Below, piece by piece: positions 20,635 to 64,000 of a stretch of 64,000 nt of DNA; positions within the stretch are counted from its first letter, which is position 1, and each line of letters opens with the position of its first letter. The notes under the pieces were generated by a model. That model saw only the letters and a list, made by a program, of their open reading frames with translations. It made no database searches and had not been told where the DNA came from. The stretch is from Pirellulales bacterium (GTDB taxonomy: Bacteria > Planctomycetota > Planctomycetia > Pirellulales > JADZDJ01): assembly GCA_020851115.1 (NCBI GenBank), contig JADZDJ010000278.1, positions 1 through 64,000 of the forward strand. The letters are read 5' to 3'. Position numbers and translations under genes: made by a program.

Positions 20635-21567
20635 ATGAAACGCGCTGCTGCTAAACTACCCAAGACTTCTGCTTTGCCTTCCGAAGCGGCAATTGCGCTT
20701 TCGCGGATCCAGGCAGCAGCGGTTGCGGCCATGGCGGCGATTTTGATCTGGGCGTACTGGCCCACGATGATCAATCTGGTAACCGCGTGGTGGAACGTCG
20801 ACGACTATTCGCACGGCTTCCTGGTCATTCCCCTTGCGGTGATATTTCTCTATTGGCGAGCCGCCTCGCGACCGAGCTTTGATGGACAGTTCCACGCCGC
20901 CGGCCTGGGGATGATCGCGGCCGCTGCGGCGCTGCGATGGATTGGAGCGAACGTCTTCATCGAAGCATTCGATGGTTGGTCGCTCATACTTTACGTGGTT
21001 GGCATTGTGTGGTTGGTGGGAGGTTGGCCAGTCGTTCGCTGGGCAATGCCGGCGCTGGGTTTCTTGTTTTTTATGGTGCCGTTGCCGTATCGCATGGAAA
21101 CTGCCCTCAGTTTGCCACTGCAAAAGATTGCCGCACGGGGAAGTTGTTGGCTGTTGCAGTCACTGGGGCAGCCGGCCCTGCAGGAAGGGACTACGCTCGT
21201 GATTCGGGATATCCATTTGGAGATCAGCCGAGCATGTTCCGGGCTGCGGATGTTTACTGGAGTCATCGCATTGGCGTACGTTTTTGCCGTGCTTTCGAAA
21301 CGACCGTGGTGGGATAAGGTGGTTATCCTGGTCGGTGCAATTCCGGCGGCCATCGTCGCCAACATCATTCGCATTACGGCTACGGCATTGCTATACCGAG
21401 TTTTTGCAGGCGAGGCAATCCGGCAATCGATTCACGACTTTGCCGGCTGGTTTACCATCTTCGTAGCCGCCATATTGCTGGGAATCTTGTCGCAGTATCT
21501 GAAGCGATTGATTGTCGAATCGCAAGTCGTTGGGAATCGCGAACTGCTCAGCTCAAGCGTTTCCTAG
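20635..21567 (+). CDS. Exosortase (EPS-associated transpeptidase-like membrane enzyme)
   Basis: Integral membrane cysteine protease/transpeptidase of 310 residues that recognises C-terminal PEP-CTERM-type sorting signals and is thought to transfer the processed protein to a surface carrier. Seen: about eight hydrophobic segments, an N-terminal DDYSHGFLVIPLAVIFLYW motif, and the catalytic triad Cys201 in SRACSGLR, Arg246 in VANIIRI and His267 in SIHDFAGW. The AC-SGLR motif is diagnostic of the exosortase/archaeosortase family. The EpsI domain often fused to or next to exosortase is supplied by the separate gene at 28351. It leads an operon with the Wzz/kinase, TPR and EpsI genes. The exosortase subtype cannot be fixed by eye. 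Confidence 0.9.
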   Translation: MKRAAAKLPKTSALPSEAAIALSRIQAAAVAAMAAILIWAYWPTMINLVTAWWNVDDYSHGFLVIPLAVIFLYWRAASRPSFDGQFHAAGLGMIAAAAALRWIGANVFIEAFDGWSLILYVVGIVWLVGGWPVVRWAMPALGFLFFMVPLPYRMETALSLPLQKIAARGSCWLLQSLGQPALQEGTTLVIRDIHLEISRACSGLRMFTGVIALAYVFAVLSKRPWWDKVVILVGAIPAAIVANIIRITATALLYRVFAGEAIRQSIHDFAGWFTIFVAAILLGILSQYLKRLIVESQVVGNRELLSSSVS

Positions 21568-44517: not shown

Positions 44518-46467
44518 ATGTGTGGCATCGCAGGAATGTTGTATGCCGATTCGAGCCGGCCGGCCAACAGGCAACTGCTGCAAACCATGGGGGCCGCGAT
44601 TGCGCATCGTGGTCCGGACGCCGAAGGGATTTGGAGCGACGCCGGCGTTGGCTTGGTCCATCGCCGGCTGTCGATCATCGATATCGACGGCGGCGATCAG
44701 CCCATCGGCAACGAAGACGGCTCGATTCAGGTCGTTTTCAACGGAGAAATCTACAACTATCGCCAATTGCGCGACGAATTGATCGGCAAGGGGCATCGTT
44801 TGCAAACACAGTCCGACACCGAAGTGCTGGTTCATCTCTACGAGGAATTAGGCGAACGGCTGGTTGAGAAGCTGCGAGGAATGTTTGCACTGGCGCTGTG
44901 GGATTCGAATAGGCGGCGACTGGTCTTGGCCCGCGATCGCATCGGGCTGAAACCACTGTATATCTATCGCGATGGCGAGAAGTTGCTCTTTGGTTCGGAA
45001 TTGAAAGCGATTCTGGCGCATCCCCAGGTTGACCGAACGGTGGATGTCGAGGCACTCGAAGACTATTTGACGTTCGGCGTGATACCCGGTCATCGTTCGA
45101 TTTTTCGGCGAGTCGAAAAGCTACCACCGGCGCATGTGCTGGTCGTGACCGCCGACCATCTGAACGCTTCGCCGCGGCGTTATTGGTCGTACCCCACGGA
45201 CGCAACCGTTTCCAGAAGCGTCGAGGACTGGAAGTCGGCGATCGACGACAAGATTCGGGAGACGGTGAGCGCGCATTTGATTGCCGATGTGCCGGTGGGC
45301 GCATTTCTCAGCGGCGGCATCGATTCGAGCCTCGTGGTTGGCATCGCCGCAGAATTGTCGCCTGGTCGGCTGCCGACCTTTTCGATTGGCTTTCGGGAGC
45401 ATGCCTTTAGCGAGCTGCCCTATGCGAGGCAAGTCGCCGAACAATTCAATTGCCTGCATACCGAAGAGATCGTGACGGCCGACGCCGCAGCGGATTTAGA
45501 CGACTTGGTGACGTATTTTGATGAACCGTTTGCCGATAGCTCGGCAATTCCCACTCTACGAGTGTCGCGATTGGCGCGCCGCTCGGTGAAGGTAGTCTTA
45601 TCGGGCGACGGGGGAGACGAGGCCTTTGGCGGCTATCGACGATACGTTCACGATCTGCGCGAAGCGCGACTTCGTGCCGCCATTCCTCGATGGGCTTGCC
45701 GCCAACTTGTCGGGCCATTGGCTCGCGCTTGGCCCAAGGCCGATTGGTTGCCCAAAGCGCTGCGACTCAAAAGCACGCTTACAAATCTTTCGCTGTCGCC
45801 GGCCGAGGCTTACGCCCATACCCTGTCAATTTGCCGGCTCCCTTGGCGGCGCGGCTTGTTGTCTGGCGAAGTTCGGTCAATGCTCAACGGTCATCGCCCA
45901 GAGCGAGAGGTCATTTGGCATTACGAGAACGCGCGCGGCCGCGACGAATTGACGAACATGATTGCAGCCGACGTCAATCTGTTGCTGCCCGATGATTTTT
46001 TGACAAAAGTGGACCGGGCTAGCATGGCGTGTGGATTGGAAGTTCGACCGCCATTGGTCGATCATGAGTTCCTGGAACTGACCGCCCAAGTTCCATCGTC
46101 CCTCAAAGTGCGCAACGGCCACGGTAAGTGGATTTTGAAGGAAATCATTCGCAATCGGCTACCGGAGGCTATCTGGAATCGCCCGAAGCAAGGGTTTGAA
46201 ATTCCCGTTGACGAGTGGTTACGGAGTTCGCTTCGTTCGTCGTTTGAAGACAAAGTATTGTCGCGGCGTTCGACGATCGTGGACCTGATCGATCAACGAG
46301 CCGTGCGAAAATTGTACCAGTCTCATCAACAAGGGGTAGGCTACCACGGCAATGGACTCTGGAGTCTCTTAGTACTCGCAAACTGGGCTGCGGCGTATCT
46401 TTCGCCAACCGGCGAATGGGTGCGGCCAAATTCGCGAAGCGCCGCTTTGAACGAATTTTCAGCGTAG
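44518..46467 (+). CDS. Asparagine-synthase-type amidotransferase (exosortase-associated)
   Basis: Glutamine-dependent amidotransferase of 649 residues. Seen: N-terminal nucleophile Cys2 (MCGIAGM), AIAHRGPDAEG, FNGEIYNYRQLR, DRIGLKPLY, and the synthetase-domain ATP-pyrophosphatase loop FLSGGIDSSLV near residue 265, plus LSGDGGDEAFGGYRRY and KVDRASMACGLEVRPPLVDHEFLE. It is a typical AsnB fold, and in EPS loci with exosortase such enzymes (amidotransferase 1) are thought to amidate a uronic acid or other carboxyl group. Whether it makes asparagine or modifies sugars cannot be decided by eye; context favours the latter. Confidence 0.88.
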   Translation: MCGIAGMLYADSSRPANRQLLQTMGAAIAHRGPDAEGIWSDAGVGLVHRRLSIIDIDGGDQPIGNEDGSIQVVFNGEIYNYRQLRDELIGKGHRLQTQSDTEVLVHLYEELGERLVEKLRGMFALALWDSNRRRLVLARDRIGLKPLYIYRDGEKLLFGSELKAILAHPQVDRTVDVEALEDYLTFGVIPGHRSIFRRVEKLPPAHVLVVTADHLNASPRRYWSYPTDATVSRSVEDWKSAIDDKIRETVSAHLIADVPVGAFLSGGIDSSLVVGIAAELSPGRLPTFSIGFREHAFSELPYARQVAEQFNCLHTEEIVTADAAADLDDLVTYFDEPFADSSAIPTLRVSRLARRSVKVVLSGDGGDEAFGGYRRYVHDLREARLRAAIPRWACRQLVGPLARAWPKADWLPKALRLKSTLTNLSLSPAEAYAHTLSICRLPWRRGLLSGEVRSMLNGHRPEREVIWHYENARGRDELTNMIAADVNLLLPDDFLTKVDRASMACGLEVRPPLVDHEFLELTAQVPSSLKVRNGHGKWILKEIIRNRLPEAIWNRPKQGFEIPVDEWLRSSLRSSFEDKVLSRRSTIVDLIDQRAVRKLYQSHQQGVGYHGNGLWSLLVLANWAAAYLSPTGEWVRPNSRSAALNEFSA

Positions 46468-46473
46468 CACCGA

Positions 46474-49158
46474 ATGACGTTTACTCATCGGACCATCGAC
46501 GAATCGATCAACGACAACGCAACCGGCGACCTAGCCCTATCGACTGGCGCTGTGGCTAAGGGCAGAGGCCATCCGTGGATCGCACCGATTGCAGTTCACT
46601 CGGAACGAGAGATTGCCGCGCCGTGTCCGATCACAGTCGGAGTGCCGTTTCCGATTGGGTTGCTGCGAGACGCCGCCGATGTCGCCCTAACGGATAGCTG
46701 CTCAGAGCAGCTTCCCGTGCAGACTACAACACTGGAAAAATGGCGAGACGGCAGTGTGAAATGGCTGCTAATCGATTTTATTGTGCGACACCTGCGCGCT
46801 AGCAGCAACACCTTCCTGTTGACTCATCACTCCGATCGCCGGCCGTTGCAAGACTCTTCGTTTCAGGTCGATCAGGTCGATGGATTCATGAGAATCTCGA
46901 CTGGGCAGTGTACTTTCGAGATTGACCAGGACAATTTACGCCCGCTGAACAGTGTGCAAATTGATGGTAGCGAACTGCTCGATACGGTGGGTTCTACTAT
47001 CGATTTGATTGACCGGCGAGGAAAGTTGCGGCAGGGAATAGTACGTGCGTCAGAGTGGGAAGCGATTGGGCCGATTCGAACCACATTGTTGCTTCGCGGC
47101 GACATTGCTGGCTGTCGCGGATTGCATTTCTCTTGCCGACTTTGTTTCTTCACTGACACCGGCATCGTCCGATTGCGCGTTACACTTCACAATTCAAGAT
47201 GTGCGAGGCATCCCGGCGGCGTCTGGGATCTCGGGGATCGTAGCTCGTTCTTTTTTCGCAGTTTCTCTTTGAAATTGTCACTCAACGGTTTTCCTTCCGT
47301 CCAGTGGGCTGACTCGGCCTACGGCGACGTTCATGCGCTCACTAGCCGCGATTTGGAAATCTATCAGGATTCGAGCGGCGGCGAAAATTGGCAAAGCCGC
47401 AATCACATAAACTGCGCAGGGCGTGTCCCGTGCCAGTTTCGAGGCTTTCGCGTCCGAGCGAATGGAAGCGATCGATTTGGATTGCGCGCGTCTCCATCAA
47501 TTTCGATGACTACAACCGCAGGCCGCTTGACGGTCTGCGTTCCTGAATTTTGGCAGCAGTTTCCCAAATCGTTAAACCTCGATGGAAAGTCTTTGGTCAT
47601 TGGACTCTTTCCAATGCAGTGGGGAGACACATTTGAACTGCAAGGCGGGGAGCAAAAGGCCCATACAGTTTGGTTGCATTTTGGTAGTTCGTCGGATTTG
47701 TGCAGTTCGTTGCAATGGGTGCATCAACCGCCGCGGCCCATTCCGGATGCAGCTTGGTGCGCAGCGTCGGCAGCAATCCCCTGGCTGCTTCCGCAAGTCG
47801 AAGATGCCGATAACCGATTGAGTCATTACTTGGCCGGGGCCATTCGAGGTTGCCGAAGTTTGCAGGCGCGTCGGGAAGTAATTGACGAGTATGGCTGGCG
47901 AAATTTCGGCGATCTCTACGCTGACCATGAGGCGGCCTACTATCGCGGCCCGACGCCGGTCATTTCTCATTACAACAATCAGTTCGATTCAGTTCTTGGT
48001 TCGCTCATTCAGATGCTGCGGACCGGCGACCCCGAATGGTGGCAGATTGCCGATCCACTGGCACGTCACGTGATCGACATCGATATTTATCGAACCCATA
48101 AAGACCGTGCAGCTTATAACGGCGGCCTATTCTGGTTCACCGATCATTACTTAGACGCTTTCACGAGCACGCACCGTTGTTACTCGCGAGTAAACCGTCC
48201 GGGGTGCCGCGATTATGGAGGGGGCCCGGCGAGCGAACATAATTTTACGTCTGGGTTATTATTGTATTTTCACCTAACCGGTGATCATCAAGCGCGAGAA
48301 ACTGTTCTTTCTCTTGCTGATTGGGTTATTGATATGGATGATGGCCGGTTGAATGTGCTTGGAATCGTCAACTGTGCGCCTACTGGAATCGCGAGTCGGG
48401 GAGGCGCATCCCGCAGTACGGGAAATTCAATCAATGCCTTGCTGGACGGCTGGCATGTAACTGGAGAACGCCGATACCTCACAAAGGCCGAGGAATTGCT
48501 TCTGCGCGTAGCAAAACCGACAGACGATGTCGAATCGCTCGACCTTCTAGATGTCGAGCGTCACTGGTCTTACACCGTGTTCCTGTCGAGTTTGATTCGC
48601 ATCCTGCATACCAAGCTCGAAGCTGGCGAGAACGATGTAGTGTACGGCTACGGTCGGAAATGCCTTTTGACGTACGCACGCTGGATGGCGTTGCACGAAC
48701 GTCCGTACTTCGATCAAACCGAGCGACTGGAGTTTCCTACAGAGGCATGGGCCGCCCAGGAATTCCGAAAGGCGAACGTGCTGCGTTGCGCAAGCGCCTT
48801 TGCCGACGATAATTTGGGCGCATTGATGCAGGCGCGAGGTCGAGAAATTGCCGAACGAGCGTGGTCAGACCTGTTGCGATTTGAATCCCGCGATACGTCA
48901 CGTGCGTTGGCGATTCTAATGGTCGAAGGCACGATCGATCAGTGGCTCCGTGTGCGGCCGCTTGTTCGAGGGGACAAGCCCATGGTCGAAGACACAACCA
49001 TCAACTCGTCAACATTTACTTCGCAGAAAGAACAAGTACTAAACGACATGCGTTCGATCGGCGGGCTATTGCGACTATCGTTGCGAGTGTTAAACATTCA
49101 ACGGATTCTGCAATTTGTGCGCGCCCGAAACAAACCACGAAGAAACCGTTCGATTTAA
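46474..49158 (+). CDS. Probable PcRGLX/YetA-like polysaccharide lyase or related protein
   Basis: An 894-residue protein. The N-terminal part contains CPITVGVPFPIGLLRD and VQTTTLEKWRDGSVKWLLIDF, a pattern I recognise from the N-terminal RIFT-barrel domain of the PcRGLX/YetA group of rhamnogalacturonan/rhamnose-glucuronate lyases. A beta-sandwich region follows (about 200-400), then an alpha/alpha-toroid region (about 460-790) with His/Tyr-rich segments such as YADHEAAYYRGPTPVISHYNN, FWFTDHYLDAF and ASEHNFTSGLLLYFHLTGD. No signal peptide is visible, so its location is uncertain. Within the EPS locus it could trim or edit the polymer. Family assignment is from pattern only. Confidence 0.6.
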   Translation: MTFTHRTIDESINDNATGDLALSTGAVAKGRGHPWIAPIAVHSEREIAAPCPITVGVPFPIGLLRDAADVALTDSCSEQLPVQTTTLEKWRDGSVKWLLIDFIVRHLRASSNTFLLTHHSDRRPLQDSSFQVDQVDGFMRISTGQCTFEIDQDNLRPLNSVQIDGSELLDTVGSTIDLIDRRGKLRQGIVRASEWEAIGPIRTTLLLRGDIAGCRGLHFSCRLCFFTDTGIVRLRVTLHNSRCARHPGGVWDLGDRSSFFFRSFSLKLSLNGFPSVQWADSAYGDVHALTSRDLEIYQDSSGGENWQSRNHINCAGRVPCQFRGFRVRANGSDRFGLRASPSISMTTTAGRLTVCVPEFWQQFPKSLNLDGKSLVIGLFPMQWGDTFELQGGEQKAHTVWLHFGSSSDLCSSLQWVHQPPRPIPDAAWCAASAAIPWLLPQVEDADNRLSHYLAGAIRGCRSLQARREVIDEYGWRNFGDLYADHEAAYYRGPTPVISHYNNQFDSVLGSLIQMLRTGDPEWWQIADPLARHVIDIDIYRTHKDRAAYNGGLFWFTDHYLDAFTSTHRCYSRVNRPGCRDYGGGPASEHNFTSGLLLYFHLTGDHQARETVLSLADWVIDMDDGRLNVLGIVNCAPTGIASRGGASRSTGNSINALLDGWHVTGERRYLTKAEELLLRVAKPTDDVESLDLLDVERHWSYTVFLSSLIRILHTKLEAGENDVVYGYGRKCLLTYARWMALHERPYFDQTERLEFPTEAWAAQEFRKANVLRCASAFADDNLGALMQARGREIAERAWSDLLRFESRDTSRALAILMVEGTIDQWLRVRPLVRGDKPMVEDTTINSSTFTSQKEQVLNDMRSIGGLLRLSLRVLNIQRILQFVRARNKPRRNRSI

Positions 49159-49159
49159 G

Positions 49160-49732
49160 ATGCCTACTTGGATTACTACTTGCGCTCGTCCCGACCTCTA
49201 CTTGAACAGCGTGCTAGACTTGAAGCTTAACAGCCTTCGGCAGTTCAACATCTGCGCACTTTTCTTGGACGTCGATTGCACACTTAAGAACCACGGCTCT
49301 CGTACGCTCAATGCGGGAGTTCAAGATTGGATCGATTCACTTCGCAACGAGGGAATCGAGATGTGCTTGCTTTCCAACGGCCGGCGAGCGCGTATCGAGA
49401 AATTAGCGAAGCAAATCGACCTCCCATTTGTTTCACTCGCATTCAAACCATTTCCCTTCGGTTGTCGCAAGGCAGCCCGGAAATTAGGAGTTTGCACCCG
49501 AAACTCGGCGATCGTTGGAGATCAGGTATTCGCCGACGTCATGGCTGGAAAACTTGCAGGCCTATTCACAATCTTGGTTTGTCCGACGAGTACGGCAGAA
49601 CCTTGGTTTACTCGCGTCAAACGCCCCATCGAGCGGTTTGTATTGGCACGCATGGCATGCCAACCCCGTTCGACAGTTCAGGCAACCTACACTCCTCAGA
49701 ACAACAAACCGGTGGGGAACAACAGCAAGTGA
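49160..49732 (+). CDS. HAD-family phosphatase (YqeG-like)
   Basis: HAD hydrolase of 190 residues. Seen: motif I LFLDVDCTL (nucleophile Asp in DxDxT), LLSNGRRARIEKLA (motif II, Ser/Asn), the Lys of FKPFPFGCRKAARKLG (motif III), and VGDQVFADVMAGKLAGLFTILV (motif IV), followed by RVKRPIERFVLARM. Layout matches YqeG/GEP4-type phosphatases, which dephosphorylate lipid or small phosphates. The ATG at 49160 is two bases after the previous stop. It precedes the DPPR-synthase-like gene, so it may dephosphorylate that enzyme's polyprenyl-phosphoryl-phosphopentose product; this is inference. Confidence 0.82.
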   Translation: MPTWITTCARPDLYLNSVLDLKLNSLRQFNICALFLDVDCTLKNHGSRTLNAGVQDWIDSLRNEGIEMCLLSNGRRARIEKLAKQIDLPFVSLAFKPFPFGCRKAARKLGVCTRNSAIVGDQVFADVMAGKLAGLFTILVCPTSTAEPWFTRVKRPIERFVLARMACQPRSTVQATYTPQNNKPVGNNSK

Positions 49733-49810
49733 AGCTGGAGGTTTGATTAATATGACTGGGCACTTCACACCAATTCGCAGCGAGATTGTCACTACTTTCG
49801 GAGCGGCTCC

Positions 49811-50896
49811 ATGTACGACACTTCAGCAAATTCATCAATACCGTTGACCCCATCAAACTCTGATGTTGCCGCCCTTGCGTCCAGCGAGGCAAGACATTCG
49901 CTGCAAGGTTACACTGTTGCCGATGAGCGCTCGACTTGGCGCCAAGTCGGTTCGTATGTATCGATCGCGCGTCCCGACCATTGGTTTAAGAATGTCTTCA
50001 TGCTGCTCGGCGCACTGCTTGCCGCTTTTTATCATCCAGAGCTGCTTTCTTGGAGCATGGTTCCCGATCTATTTTTGGGCCTCGTGGCCACATGCATTGT
50101 CGCGTCCAGCAACTATGTGATTAACGAGATCCTGGATGCCCCGACCGATCGCAGCCATCGCGTCAAACGACGCCGGCCCATTCCATCGGGAATGGTGCGG
50201 TTGCCCATCGCCTACGCGGAATGGATCTCGTTGGGGATTATCGGCTTAGGGCTGGCGTCGATGGTCGGGTTTTCTTTTTTTGTCGCCGCCGCCGCCTTGT
50301 TGGTGATGGGCTTAGTTTACAATGTGCCGCCGTTGCGCACGAAGGAATGGCCGTACATCGACGTGCTTTCGGAATCGGTCAATAATCCGTTGCGTTTATT
50401 GTTGGGTTGGTTTGCGGTCAGCGGCCATGAAGTTCCGCCGATGTCGCTGCTGGTCTTCTACTGGATGATCGGCGCATTTTTTATGGCGAGCAAGCGATTT
50501 GCAGAATATCGCTCGATTGCCGACAAGGCTAGCGCCGGCCAATATCGCAGCTCCTTCAAGTATTACGACGAAAACCGTCTGCTGGTGAGCATGTTCTTTT
50601 ATGCGACGGCCGCTGCGCTGTTCCTGGGTGTTTTCATTATCCGCTTCAAGCTTGAATTGTTGCTTAGCATCCCTTTGATTGCTGGTTCTTTCAGCTACTA
50701 CCTTCTCGTTGCATTGAAGCCGGAAAGCGCTGCCCAAGCCCCTGAGAGACTTTACCGCGAGCGCGGCCTAACGGTCTATTTAGGTATCAGCGTACTAGTC
50801 TTTGTGGCCCTTATGTTTACGCAGATTCCAGCGTTATATCGGTGGTTTAACGTCGAGCCTGCGCGCGTCCCGGCGCTCTGGAAATTCGAACCGTAG
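49811..50896 (+). CDS. UbiA-family prenyltransferase, DPPR-synthase-like
   Basis: Integral membrane prenyltransferase of 361 residues with about eight or nine membrane segments. The motif ASSNYVINEILDAPTDRSHRVKRRRPIPSG near residue 100 matches decaprenyl-phosphate 5-phosphoribosyltransferase (DPPR synthase, Rv3806c-like), which transfers phosphoribose from PRPP to a polyprenyl phosphate. It also has ARPDHWFKNVFMLLG before it, as in that subfamily. In mycobacteria the product leads to arabinose donors. The flanking HAD phosphatase and GT39-like transferase suggest a polyprenyl-phosphate pentose pathway for EPS decoration. Confidence 0.83.
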   Translation: MYDTSANSSIPLTPSNSDVAALASSEARHSLQGYTVADERSTWRQVGSYVSIARPDHWFKNVFMLLGALLAAFYHPELLSWSMVPDLFLGLVATCIVASSNYVINEILDAPTDRSHRVKRRRPIPSGMVRLPIAYAEWISLGIIGLGLASMVGFSFFVAAAALLVMGLVYNVPPLRTKEWPYIDVLSESVNNPLRLLLGWFAVSGHEVPPMSLLVFYWMIGAFFMASKRFAEYRSIADKASAGQYRSSFKYYDENRLLVSMFFYATAAALFLGVFIIRFKLELLLSIPLIAGSFSYYLLVALKPESAAQAPERLYRERGLTVYLGISVLVFVALMFTQIPALYRWFNVEPARVPALWKFEP

Positions 50897-50990
50897 CTGG
50901 ATCACGGCAATACCAACCGCGCGCTTGCCGCGCCGAATTCCCATTCGGTCGATAACTTTGGAAACGGAACGAATCCATTCAATTCGAGCC

Positions 50991-52361
50991 ATGATTGCTT
51001 CTCGCGGAATCTGGCTGATTTTGGCGGCAGGCACTGTGGTGCGCGTGGCGATTTGGCTGTGGCTGGGCAATGCGCCTCCCGCCGTCGGCGATGAGCGCGA
51101 TTACGATACTCTGGCGGTGAATCTGGTGGAACATCAAGTATATGCCTTTCAACCCGACGTTTTGACGTCGCTGCGGCCACCCCTCTATCCGTTGCTCGTG
51201 GCTGGAGTGTACGAAGCGTGCGGAGTTCGAAATTGGCAAGCGGTGCGCGGCCTGCAGATCGTCATTAGCTTGGCGACGGTTTGGCTGATTTATCAGCTCG
51301 GCAAGGCGATTTATTCACCGCCGACTGCACTTCTGGCGGCGGGTTTGACTTGCTTTTATCCTTCGCTGATTGCATACAATTCCCTCCTTTTGACGGAAAC
51401 CTTGTTTACATTTCTGTTGTGCGCGAGTTGCTTGGCGATTATCCGAGCATTTCAGAGCAATCGTGCGACTATGTGGGCCGCTTCCGGCGTGCTACTGGGG
51501 CTGGGATCGCTGACTCGAAGCATCCTTTGGTTGCTGCCGCCGCTGTTGGTGCTATGGATTCTCGGCTGCGGCCAGAGCAATCTCGCGCATCGATGCAAAG
51601 CGGCTGCCGCAATGTGCTTAGCGTTTTCGATTGTCATCGTGCCGTGGTCGATTCGAAACACTCGCCTGCAGCATACTTTCATCACGATTGACGTGATGGG
51701 AGGCCGGAATTTGATGATGGGAAACTATGATCACACGCCGCTCTATCGGGCCTGGGATGCGATCGGCGTCTCTGGCGACAAAGCTTGGCATCGCGTTCTC
51801 AAGGCCGAGAATCCTCAGGCAAAGAATCTCACCCAAGGGCAAATCGATAAGCTGGCGATGGCCAGCGGGCTGAAGTACATGTTGGCGCATCCGCAACTCA
51901 CCGCACAGCGCTGTCTCATCAAGTTCATCAATTTTTGGCAACTAGAGCGCGAAATTGTTGCAGGCGCCAAGGAAGGAAACTTTACTCCACTTCCTAATTC
52001 GGCAGTTGTCGCATTGGCGACGATGATCGTCGGCAGTTATTGCCTCGTGGCCTTTGCGGGAGTGTTTGGATTGCTGCTTGTTCCTCCCAGCAACCGAATG
52101 ATTCATTACTTGTTGCTGTTGCTAATCGGATTTACCTGCGCATTGCATACCTTGACCTTCGGCCATTCGCGTTATCATTTGCCGTTGATTCCCATCGTGG
52201 CACTGTACGCCGCGGCAGCGATTGTTTCGGCAAAAACCATCTGGCAACAGCGGCTTTCCTGGCGATTCGCTACTGCCATCACACTTTGCACTTTGCTGGC
52301 ACTCAGTTGGGGATGGGAATTCATCTGGGCCGATCCTCAGCGTTACTTTGGGGCACCGTGA
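50991..52361 (+). CDS. GT39-like membrane glycosyltransferase (ArnT-like)
   Basis: Polytopic membrane protein of 456 residues with about 10-12 hydrophobic segments. The early GDERDYDTLAVNLVEH loop resembles the acidic first-loop motif of GT-C enzymes (GT39/ArnT, PMT family), which use polyprenyl-phosphate sugars. It also has SLRPPLYPLLVAGVYEACG and the LTRSILWLLPPLL segment, and a large periplasmic part is absent. It would transfer the sugar from a lipid donor to the glycan outside the membrane. The start at 50991 is chosen because upstream frame residues overlap the previous gene and are unlike a signal or membrane start. Confidence 0.82.
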   Translation: MIASRGIWLILAAGTVVRVAIWLWLGNAPPAVGDERDYDTLAVNLVEHQVYAFQPDVLTSLRPPLYPLLVAGVYEACGVRNWQAVRGLQIVISLATVWLIYQLGKAIYSPPTALLAAGLTCFYPSLIAYNSLLLTETLFTFLLCASCLAIIRAFQSNRATMWAASGVLLGLGSLTRSILWLLPPLLVLWILGCGQSNLAHRCKAAAAMCLAFSIVIVPWSIRNTRLQHTFITIDVMGGRNLMMGNYDHTPLYRAWDAIGVSGDKAWHRVLKAENPQAKNLTQGQIDKLAMASGLKYMLAHPQLTAQRCLIKFINFWQLEREIVAGAKEGNFTPLPNSAVVALATMIVGSYCLVAFAGVFGLLLVPPSNRMIHYLLLLLIGFTCALHTLTFGHSRYHLPLIPIVALYAAAAIVSAKTIWQQRLSWRFATAITLCTLLALSWGWEFIWADPQRYFGAP

Positions 52362-52424: not shown

Positions 52425-54320
52425 ATGCCTGGACTTTACGGCATCATCCATCAACCACACTCAGCCGGCATAAACGAACTGGCCGATACGATGCAGGCGC
52501 GGATGATGCACCATCCCTGGTATCGCGTCGACGCACACCGCGATGTTGTTGCGGGAGTCGCTCTTGGTCGTGTATCCCTTGGCTTCGTCCAAACTGCCAT
52601 TCAGCCCGTCTGGAGCGCCGATCGTCAAGTGTGCCTCGTCATGCACGGAGAGCTTTTCGACGTCGGCCAGTTGCAACACCGACTTGCGAAGCGTGGATCG
52701 GTGAAGTCAAATTCGGATGCTGAATTGCTGTTGCAAGGCTACTTGCAAGAAGGCCGCAGCTTCTTTGCCGACACGAACGGCGCTTTCGTCGCCGCAATCT
52801 GGGACAATCGCGCCGATCGCTTGGTCCTCGTCAACGACCGCTTCGGTTCGAAGCCGCTATACTATGCACACACCGACCAAAGGTTGGTATTCGCCGCGGA
52901 GATCAAGTCGATTCTTGTCGACACCGCCGTTCCGAAAGACCATCACGCCCGCGGCATTGCGCAGTTCTTTTCCTTTGGTCAGCATCTTTGCGAAGATACA
53001 TTTTTCTCAGCCGTACAGGCGCTGCCAGCCGCCGCGTGGATCGTCTACGATCGAACAGCGGACACCTTGCATCTCGATCGCTACTGGCGCCACTCAGACG
53101 CCTCTCTTGCCGCGCCTGTATCCAAAGCGGATTTTCAAGAACGAATTGATGGCGCCATTGCGCGTGCCGTCCAGAATCGAACCAACGATGCCGCTGCGCT
53201 GGGGATTTCCCTTTCTGGCGGCCTCGATTCGCGGACCATCCTTGCGCTAGTCAATCCGGAAACGTCGGTGAAGTGCGTCAGCATGGGCATGCACGGCAGC
53301 CTCGATCACGCCTGTGCCGCTCGGCTCGCGAAGTTGTCGCGGCAAAAGCATCATCACTGCATTCTTGACCATACTTTTCTGGCCAATTTTGAGCATCATT
53401 TGCGACACATGGTCCACTTGACTGATGGTCATTATTTGGACCAATGCATCGTCATTCCGACACTGCCAATGTACCGCGACCTTGGCATCGAAGTGCTGCT
53501 GCGCGGACATGCCGGCGAATTGATGCACATGGACAAGGCCTATAATTTCTCACTCGATCGCGCAGGATGGGCCATCCACGACGAAACGTCGCTGCAGGCG
53601 TGGCTGAAATCGCATTTGAGTGGATACATGATGGGCGGCTTGCCCGGCCCCTTGTTCAAGACGATGACGCAGCAGGAGGCGGCATCTCTGGCGGACGATT
53701 CGCTGGATGACTGCCTTCAGCAATCGGCAGACTCCAGCGAGCCGCTGCATCGAGTCTGGCGGCTGTTTATCTCCCAGCGTTTGCGGCGGGAAACCGCGAT
53801 GTCGATGGCAAAAATGGGCACTCTCGTGGAAACTCGCCTGCCGTTTTTGGACAACGAGGTGGTGGACTGCTTGTTGTCGGCGCCACCGCACTGGAAGCGT
53901 GACGACGAAATCCAACTTAGCATCCTGCGAAAACACTTTCCGACGTTTCTATCCGTCGTGAATGCCAACACGGGAACGTCGATCGGCGCTGGCCGCTTGC
54001 GCCGCCGGTGTTCGGTTTTGCGGATGAAGATTCTCGGCAAGTTGGGCTTGCCGGGATATCAACCCTATGAGCGGCTCGGCCTGTGGCTTCGCCGTGAGCT
54101 GCGCGCATTGGTGACGCGTATCTTGCTCGATGAACGGACGCTCGACCGCGGCGTCTTTCAAGCCGACACGGTGGCGAAGGTCGTCGCCAATCATTTTGAG
54201 CAGCGACACAATCATACGGCGTTGTTGCTGGCGCTACTGATCTTTGAAATCGGTCAGCGCGAGTTTTCGGATGGCGAACAATTCGCGGCAAGTCCAGAGT
54301 TGACGACCGCGGCAAACTGA
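52425..54320 (+). CDS. Asparagine-synthase-like protein lacking the N-terminal Cys
   Basis: A 631-residue homologue of asparagine synthetase B. The N-terminal half keeps the glutaminase-fold pattern (VCLVMHGELFDVGQLQ, NDRFGSKPLYY, LVFAAEIKSIL) but starts MPGLYG, with Pro instead of the catalytic Cys2, so glutamine-dependent activity should be lost. The synthetase half has the ATP-binding loop SLSGGLDSRTI near 265, and RGHAGELMH replaces the usual GDGGDE segment. Members with this change (beta-lactam synthetase and others) use the domain for adenylation with other nucleophiles. It could ligate an amine or act with ammonia. It differs from the full amidotransferase at 44518. Confidence 0.85.
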   Translation: MPGLYGIIHQPHSAGINELADTMQARMMHHPWYRVDAHRDVVAGVALGRVSLGFVQTAIQPVWSADRQVCLVMHGELFDVGQLQHRLAKRGSVKSNSDAELLLQGYLQEGRSFFADTNGAFVAAIWDNRADRLVLVNDRFGSKPLYYAHTDQRLVFAAEIKSILVDTAVPKDHHARGIAQFFSFGQHLCEDTFFSAVQALPAAAWIVYDRTADTLHLDRYWRHSDASLAAPVSKADFQERIDGAIARAVQNRTNDAAALGISLSGGLDSRTILALVNPETSVKCVSMGMHGSLDHACAARLAKLSRQKHHHCILDHTFLANFEHHLRHMVHLTDGHYLDQCIVIPTLPMYRDLGIEVLLRGHAGELMHMDKAYNFSLDRAGWAIHDETSLQAWLKSHLSGYMMGGLPGPLFKTMTQQEAASLADDSLDDCLQQSADSSEPLHRVWRLFISQRLRRETAMSMAKMGTLVETRLPFLDNEVVDCLLSAPPHWKRDDEIQLSILRKHFPTFLSVVNANTGTSIGAGRLRRRCSVLRMKILGKLGLPGYQPYERLGLWLRRELRALVTRILLDERTLDRGVFQADTVAKVVANHFEQRHNHTALLLALLIFEIGQREFSDGEQFAASPELTTAAN

Positions 54321-63210: not shown

Positions 63211-64000
63211 ATGGCTCGTGCTTTAGTTACTGGGGCAAGTGGGTTTATCGGGAAGCGACTCGTTGAAACACTCGCGTCCCGTGGCGATACGGCAGTTTGC
63301 CTGGTACGGCCGACTTCCGACGTCGAGCGGCTCAAGCAACTGGGCGCAATGCTAACGCTTGGAGACGTGGCCCAGCCCGATTCGCTGCCGGCGGCCGTGG
63401 CCGATATTGATGTCGTCTACCACGTTGCCGGACTGACGAAAGCGAATAGCTACGACGCCTACCGCCGAGTCAATGAAGTAGGCGTACAAAACATTCTCGC
63501 TGCCTGCGCCAAGCGAACCACTCCACCACGGGTGATTTTGGTTTCGTCGTTGTCGGCGGCGGGGCCATCGCCCGACGAGCGGCTGCGGGTGGAGAGCGAT
63601 CCGGCGCAGCCAGTCTCCAATTACGGCAAAAGCAAGCGGGCCGGCGAACTAGCCGCCGAAGCACGGGCCGCCGACATGCCGATCACCGTATTTCGCCCGC
63701 CGATTGTCCTGGGGGGGGGCGACGAGCAAGGCTTCGCGCTATTTCGCAGTGTGAAGCGGCTGGGGATTCATCTGGTTGGGGGCTACGGCAAACGCTTTTC
63801 AATCGTGTACGTCGACGACCTCGTCAGTGCGATGATCTCCGCGGCCGAAAAAAGCGAGCGGCTACCGCCCCGAGCGACGCGATCATTAACAACTGAAGAA
63901 ACCGGCAATGAACCAGGCTGCGGTTACTATTTTGTTGCAGGCCCCGAAAACCCGCTGTACTCCGAATTGGGAACTTTGGTCGGCATCGCGTTGGATAAAC
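63211..64000 (+). CDS. NAD-dependent epimerase/dehydratase (partial, runs off the end)
   Basis: The first 263 residues of an extended SDR enzyme, with no stop before the window ends. Seen: the NAD-binding ALVTGASGFIGKRLVETL at residues 4-21, VYHVAGLTKANSYDAYRRVNEVG, the catalytic VSSLSAAGPS with YGKSKRAGE (Tyr and Lys of YxxxK), FRPPIVLGGGDEQGF, and FSIVYVDDLVSAMI. It resembles hopanoid-associated/dihydroflavonol-reductase-like SDRs (NAD-dependent epimerase family); the substrate is not clear. The ATG at 63211 is right before the NAD-binding strand. Confidence 0.85.
   Translation, partial: MARALVTGASGFIGKRLVETLASRGDTAVCLVRPTSDVERLKQLGAMLTLGDVAQPDSLPAAVADIDVVYHVAGLTKANSYDAYRRVNEVGVQNILAACAKRTTPPRVILVSSLSAAGPSPDERLRVESDPAQPVSNYGKSKRAGELAAEARAADMPITVFRPPIVLGGGDEQGFALFRSVKRLGIHLVGGYGKRFSIVYVDDLVSAMISAAEKSERLPPRATRSLTTEETGNEPGCGYYFVAGPENPLYSELGTLVGIALDK

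Follow-up and report, generated by a model that had tools for sequence, protein, structure and literature searches.

The synthesis of ribofuranose side chains from lipid-linked donors was proven biochemically only in 2024 (PMC11127046), when the logic of a UbiA-type PPPRS, a HAD and a GT-C was demonstrated in Citrobacter (Kelly et al. 2024, PMC11127046). The Citrobacter youngae O1/O2 system comprises ORF15, which combines PPPRS and PRP, a flippase and the GT136 protein ORF12 (PMC11127046). Among the known systems, arabinofuranose requires DprE1 and DprE2 and xylofuranose requires an SDR, whereas ribofuranose requires neither (PMC11127046). For the mycobacterial entry enzyme Rv3806c of M. tuberculosis (Mtb), the contacts to PRPP, Mg and pyrophosphate are R22, K28, Y70, N73, D77, K87, R90, Q135, Y138 and K143 (PMC10994848).

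The window analysed here (the whole 64,000-nucleotide stretch from a Pirellulales bacterium) carries three consecutive genes on the + strand, which had been recognized in a sequence-only reading as HAD, UbiA and GT-C and were found exactly so. They encode a YqeG-type HAD-IIIA phosphatase, proposed to be a polyprenyl-phosphoryl-5-phosphoribose 5-phosphatase (49160–49732; assigned by TIGR01668, motifs and synteny), a UbiA-fold protein resembling PRPP:polyprenyl-phosphate phosphoribosyltransferases (49811–50896; PRPP residues, tree and AlphaFold) and a GT-C membrane glycosyltransferase of Pfam PMT_2, proposed to be a pentofuranosyltransferase (50991–52361; PF13231 and orthologues). For the last gene, the ATG at 50991 was preferred to the alternative TTG at 50802 because the orthologue alignment favours it. 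The EPS locus containing the trio starts with an exosortase gene (20635–21567, +; TIGR02602, 146 bits, above the cut-off), and the genes for a Wzc-like kinase, an XrtA-type deacetylase, an O-ligase and XrtA-type glycosyltransferases lie nearby; the earlier description of an exosortase EPS locus is therefore correct. Directly upstream of the trio, as in most related loci, lies a gene (46474–49158, +) whose product has a PcRGLX (PL26-like) domain at its N-terminus (PF19501) and a weak GH127 match, and is possibly a polymer-processing enzyme. Downstream of the GT-C gene, in an order kept in relatives, is a gene for an asparagine-synthase-like protein (52425–54320, +; PF00733/PF13537), whose N-terminus reads MPGLYG instead of the MCG typical of class II amidotransferases. 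The nucleophilic cysteine of the glutaminase thus seems to have been lost; the other asparagine-synthase-like protein of the locus (44518–46467) retains MCGIAG.

We propose, with a probability of roughly 0.7 for the pathway as a whole, that the trio supplies a ribofuranose donor and its transferase. The UbiA protein would transfer phosphoribose from PRPP to polyprenyl phosphate at the cytoplasmic face of the membrane, the HAD protein would strip the 5-phosphate to leave polyprenyl-phosphoryl-ribofuranose, some other protein would flip this lipid, and on the outer side the GT-C protein would attach the ribofuranose to a surface glycoprotein or the exopolysaccharide. In this scheme we infer the lipid acceptor, the phosphatase substrate, ribofuranose rather than arabinofuranose, the flipping and the final acceptor. 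The core of the pathway idea in the sequence-only reading, a PRPP-type UbiA with a linked HAD, was borne out by the protein families, the residues of the PRPP site, the fold, the linkage of the genes and the repeated recruitment of a HAD, but its arabinose arm found no support, DprE1 being absent. As for the flipping step, no small ORF with 3–4 TM segments that could encode a dedicated flippase (SMR/MATE-like or GtrA) was found at 18–64 kb of the window, and GtrA domains in the genome occur only in open frames of 437–528 aa on another contig, outside the locus.

The UbiA protein matches PF01040 (E 2e-25), carries the sequence pattern NYVINEILDAPTDRSHRVKRRRPIPSG quoted earlier, and has the Mtb DPPR synthase (8j8j, 1e-13) as its best characterized PDB sequence match. 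We aligned it with 44 members of its clade, 34 further PRPP-type UbiAs, DPPRS references, E. coli UbiA, CyoE and MenA, and the genome's four remaining UbiA paralogues; in the 34 further sequences K28 is biased, because the retrieval motif covered it, and the other contact residues are unbiased. Nine of the ten Rv3806c contacts (R22, K28, Y70, N73, D77, K87, R90, Y138 and K143) are identical in the window protein and in 44/44 aligned clade members, and the tenth, the ribose contact Gln135, is replaced by Gly in all of them; NE also replaces the ND motif in the clade. K28, Y70 and K87 are not kept jointly in E. coli UbiA, CyoE or MenA or in the four paralogues. In a maximum-likelihood tree of 75 rows, with long outgroup branches, the clade (support 100/99) falls on the DPPRS side, apart from the quinone and heme enzymes. 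The AlphaFold model (pLDDT 88.7) has donor-bound Rv3806c (8j8j) as its top PDB structure match (E 8e-9, TM 0.82 by target), and archaeal UbiA structures rank lower. Tree, residues and fold thus agree on the PRPP-using type that had been suggested. The profile check for a DPPR synthase was less clear-cut: PF01040 was matched, but the protein stays below the NCBIfam cut-offs for both DPPRS (87.5 bits, cut-off 207) and PRK08238 (93.8 bits, cut-off 351). Since phmmer scores also leave a gap between the clade (at least 189) and all other sequences (about 90 or less), we regard the clade as a sister of DPPRS and not an equivalog, most likely with the same activity.

The clade comprises 46 loci from many phyla. 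Members were found in 6/294 genomes sampled across the phylum and 20/197 of the order, and record titles, which can be wrong for metagenome bins, place others in planctomycetes, acidobacteria, gemmatimonads, proteobacteria, actinobacteria and further groups. Plasmids of rhizobia, Rhodobacter, Paracoccus and Sphingobium carry clade genes, and phage records contained no relative. The sporadic presence combined with high identity suggests that the clade moves horizontally.

YqeG/GEP4-like HAD-IIIA phosphatases remove phosphate at membrane-lipid head groups, by known or presumed function. The window HAD scores above the cut-off of TIGR01668 (108 bits, cut-off 89.1), and its motifs D37xD39xT41, S72, K96 and G120D121..D126, a complete set of HAD motifs I–IV, are invariant in five linked orthologues. 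In 24/46 loci a HAD gene lies no more than 3 kb from the clade UbiA, compared with 2/248 ORFs farther off in the same loci, and three subfamilies take this place (HAD-IIIA YqeG, HAD-IA and HAD-IB). Among 17 planctomycete-type EPS loci, YqeG is immediately upstream of UbiA in nine, HAD-IA is present in four (about 11 kb away in two) and HAD-IB in one; exactly one HAD type thus occurs in 14/17, two kinds never occur together, and none was found in the available sequence of the remaining three. Rhizobial loci are arranged as UbiA, HAD, GtrA, and one clade protein (L071) is itself a HAD-UbiA fusion. The swapping of different HAD subfamilies at one position, together with this fusion, points to the UbiA product as the probable substrate that the HAD dephosphorylates. 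The expectation of a phosphatase beside UbiA was thus met by repeated recruitment, and its family does differ from the mycobacterial PAP2 type, as had been remarked for actinobacteria. In Rhodobacter (L042, 7278–9935), a clade UbiA and GtrA are directly preceded by the gene of an 885-aa protein that has a HAD domain at its N-terminus and matches UbiA weakly.

The GT-C protein matches PF13231 PMT_2 (E 2e-16). The label GT39-like, given earlier, holds loosely through this match but is too narrow, because PF02366 (PMT), the true GT39 model, was not reported at E ≤ 0.01. Orthologues are 45–49% identical, with an invariant HSRYHLP and an invariant D34 after TM1, where an acidic residue is usual for GT-C. 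The low-confidence structure model (pLDDT 59) matched GT-C folds (oligosaccharyltransferase, ArnT and Pmt), which at this confidence is suggestive. The gene is present in 14/17 related EPS loci. Direct succession of HAD, UbiA and GT-C was seen in 6/17 related loci, and some HAD in 14/17, indicating that the linkage of the three genes surveyed is recurrent but that the full trio is not obligatory.

These data allow several other readings to be weighed. The UbiA protein belongs to the same superfamily as the prenyltransferases for quinone, heme or other aromatic acceptors and is only about 24–30% identical to DPPRS-type enzymes, but such a role is contradicted by the tree, the PRPP-site residues and the structural match. 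Grouping with quinone or heme prenyltransferases had been named as one of two outcomes that would speak against the module; the clade stands separate from them, and with the PRPP-site residues we reject this role, its probability being very small. The other such outcome, a lack of conserved linkage of the three genes in relatives, was not borne out in full either. It is improbable as well that the HAD serves ordinary lipid metabolism as a phosphatidylglycerophosphate phosphatase and lies here by chance: it has kinship to the mitochondrial enzyme (PF09419, E 0.0015, below the cut-off), and YqeG genes without such linkage are frequent in one family (f3) of the order, but the three YqeG genes outside that family in the sampled order are all UbiA-linked, the linked genes cluster on a weakly resolved YqeG tree (3 changes versus 8 expected), and other HAD subfamilies occupy the equivalent place in sister loci. 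In addition, the genome encodes PgpA, and the YqeG-like HAD is therefore dispensable for phosphatidylglycerol. A more serious, though still unlikely, reading is that the clade, with its fixed Gly at the ribose-contact site and NE for ND, is a functionally distinct phosphoribosyltransferase family, horizontally spread between phyla, whose acceptor lipid differs or whose pentofuranose donor is linked or modified in another way. Some clade loci have methyltransferase, SDR or GMC neighbours. In three of them (L073, L074 and L078), a class I methyltransferase of one sequence cluster (Methyltransf_23 in L074) adjoins the clade UbiA, hinting at a methylated pentofuranose.

The remaining two readings concern the transferase and the sugar. 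UbiA and HAD might form one unit, and the GT-C might draw on a different lipid-phosphate sugar, such as a hexose, and be a mere neighbour in the EPS locus. The breadth of the PMT_2 family would allow this, and three loci (L025, L028 and L184) retain HAD and UbiA without this GT-C or any other obvious GT-C near UbiA. However, wherever the gene occurs (14 loci) it lies directly after UbiA, and various GT-C proteins adjoin clade UbiAs in other phyla as well. We hold the separate role of the GT-C to be a minority possibility, and its assignment as the transferase of the pathway to be plausible. For the sugar, we used as DprE1 probe a Sinorhizobium protein that scores 403 bits against the DprE1 model and adjoins a DprE2-like gene. 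No DprE1 was found in the 98.8% complete genome, the only match (25% over 136 aa) lying in an FAD-protein frame beside a GlcD-like gene, and none of the 46 clade UbiAs has DprE1 or DprE2 beside it, whereas DprE1/DprE2 adjoin several DPPRS-side UbiAs. Because of these absences, ribofuranose is favoured over arabinofuranose as the predicted sugar, and the arabinofuranose decoration once considered loses its footing. The same absences weigh against an epimerase encoded elsewhere that would turn lipid-linked ribose into arabinofuranose or xylofuranose before transfer, with the entry chemistry unchanged. SDR epimerases do adjoin clade UbiAs in three loci (L072, L080 and L051), one of which (L080) has GMC oxidoreductase, SDR, UbiA, GtrA and HAD in a row, and an SDR-like gene begins at 63211 of the window, about 12 kb downstream, but the latter is outside the conserved neighbours of the trio. 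We regard this conversion as doubtful, slightly more so than a separate GT-C.

Two neighbourhoods found in other bacteria are described here in their own right. In a Spongiibacteraceae MAG (L080, 1102–5933), the row of genes for a GMC oxidoreductase, an SDR epimerase, a clade UbiA, GtrA and HAD-IB is a candidate epimerising system assembled without the DprE1 family. On the nodule plasmid of Sinorhizobium alkalisoli (L129, 5764–9402), UbiA (PRK08238), GtrA, DprE1-like and DprE2-like genes stand in a row that, judged by its gene content, is a complete arabinofuranose-donor set.

The ribofuranose pathway proposed for the trio adds to the known systems a separate, previously undescribed clade of the entry enzyme, scattered across many phyla, and predicts ribose in glycans of unknown chemistry, including planctomycete exosortase EPS. 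The swapping of HAD subfamilies at one step also provides a simple genomic marker for more pentofuranose systems. Our literature search found no biochemistry for any member of the UbiA clade; among papers accessible without subscription, it found neither a report connecting YqeG with lipid-linked sugars nor a description of such a pentofuranose pathway in an exosortase locus.

Of the known systems, the three-component pentofuranose pathway (Kelly et al. 2024, PMC11127046) comes nearest to the trio. As in C. youngae O1/O2, a UbiA-type phosphoribosyltransferase, a HAD phosphatase and a GT-C occur together in a surface-polysaccharide locus, and the ribose version there also lacks DprE1/E2. The components differ, however: the HAD, of YqeG type (HAD-IIIA), is a protein of its own here but a capped domain fused to UbiA in Citrobacter; the small flippase of the Citrobacter system is absent from the locus; and the host locus is exosortase-linked, unlike that of Citrobacter. 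The GT-C here is PMT_2-like, with an Asp after TM1, and may or may not share the GT136 family of ORF12. The UbiA clade probably also differs from that of ORF15, which is presumably close to PRK08238-type proteins. The mycobacterial DPA pathway (Rv3806c DPPRS, Rv3807c, DprE1/DprE2, Rv3789 and Emb/Aft) shares the first step and the PRPP-binding residues, whereas here Gln135 is exchanged for Gly, a HAD replaces the PAP2 phosphatase, and neither DprE1 nor an Emb/Aft-type partner was seen. The HAD-UbiA proteins of PRK08238/NF006088 follow the same logic of a HAD with a PRPP-type UbiA, but the window UbiA reaches only 94 bits against their model (cut-off 351) and belongs to a separate clade. The window HAD, although above the cut-off of the YqeG/GEP4-like family (TIGR01668), adjoins a phosphoribosyltransferase rather than phosphatidylglycerol synthesis. 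The trio is probably a variant of the three-component pentofuranose pathway rather than a new principle.
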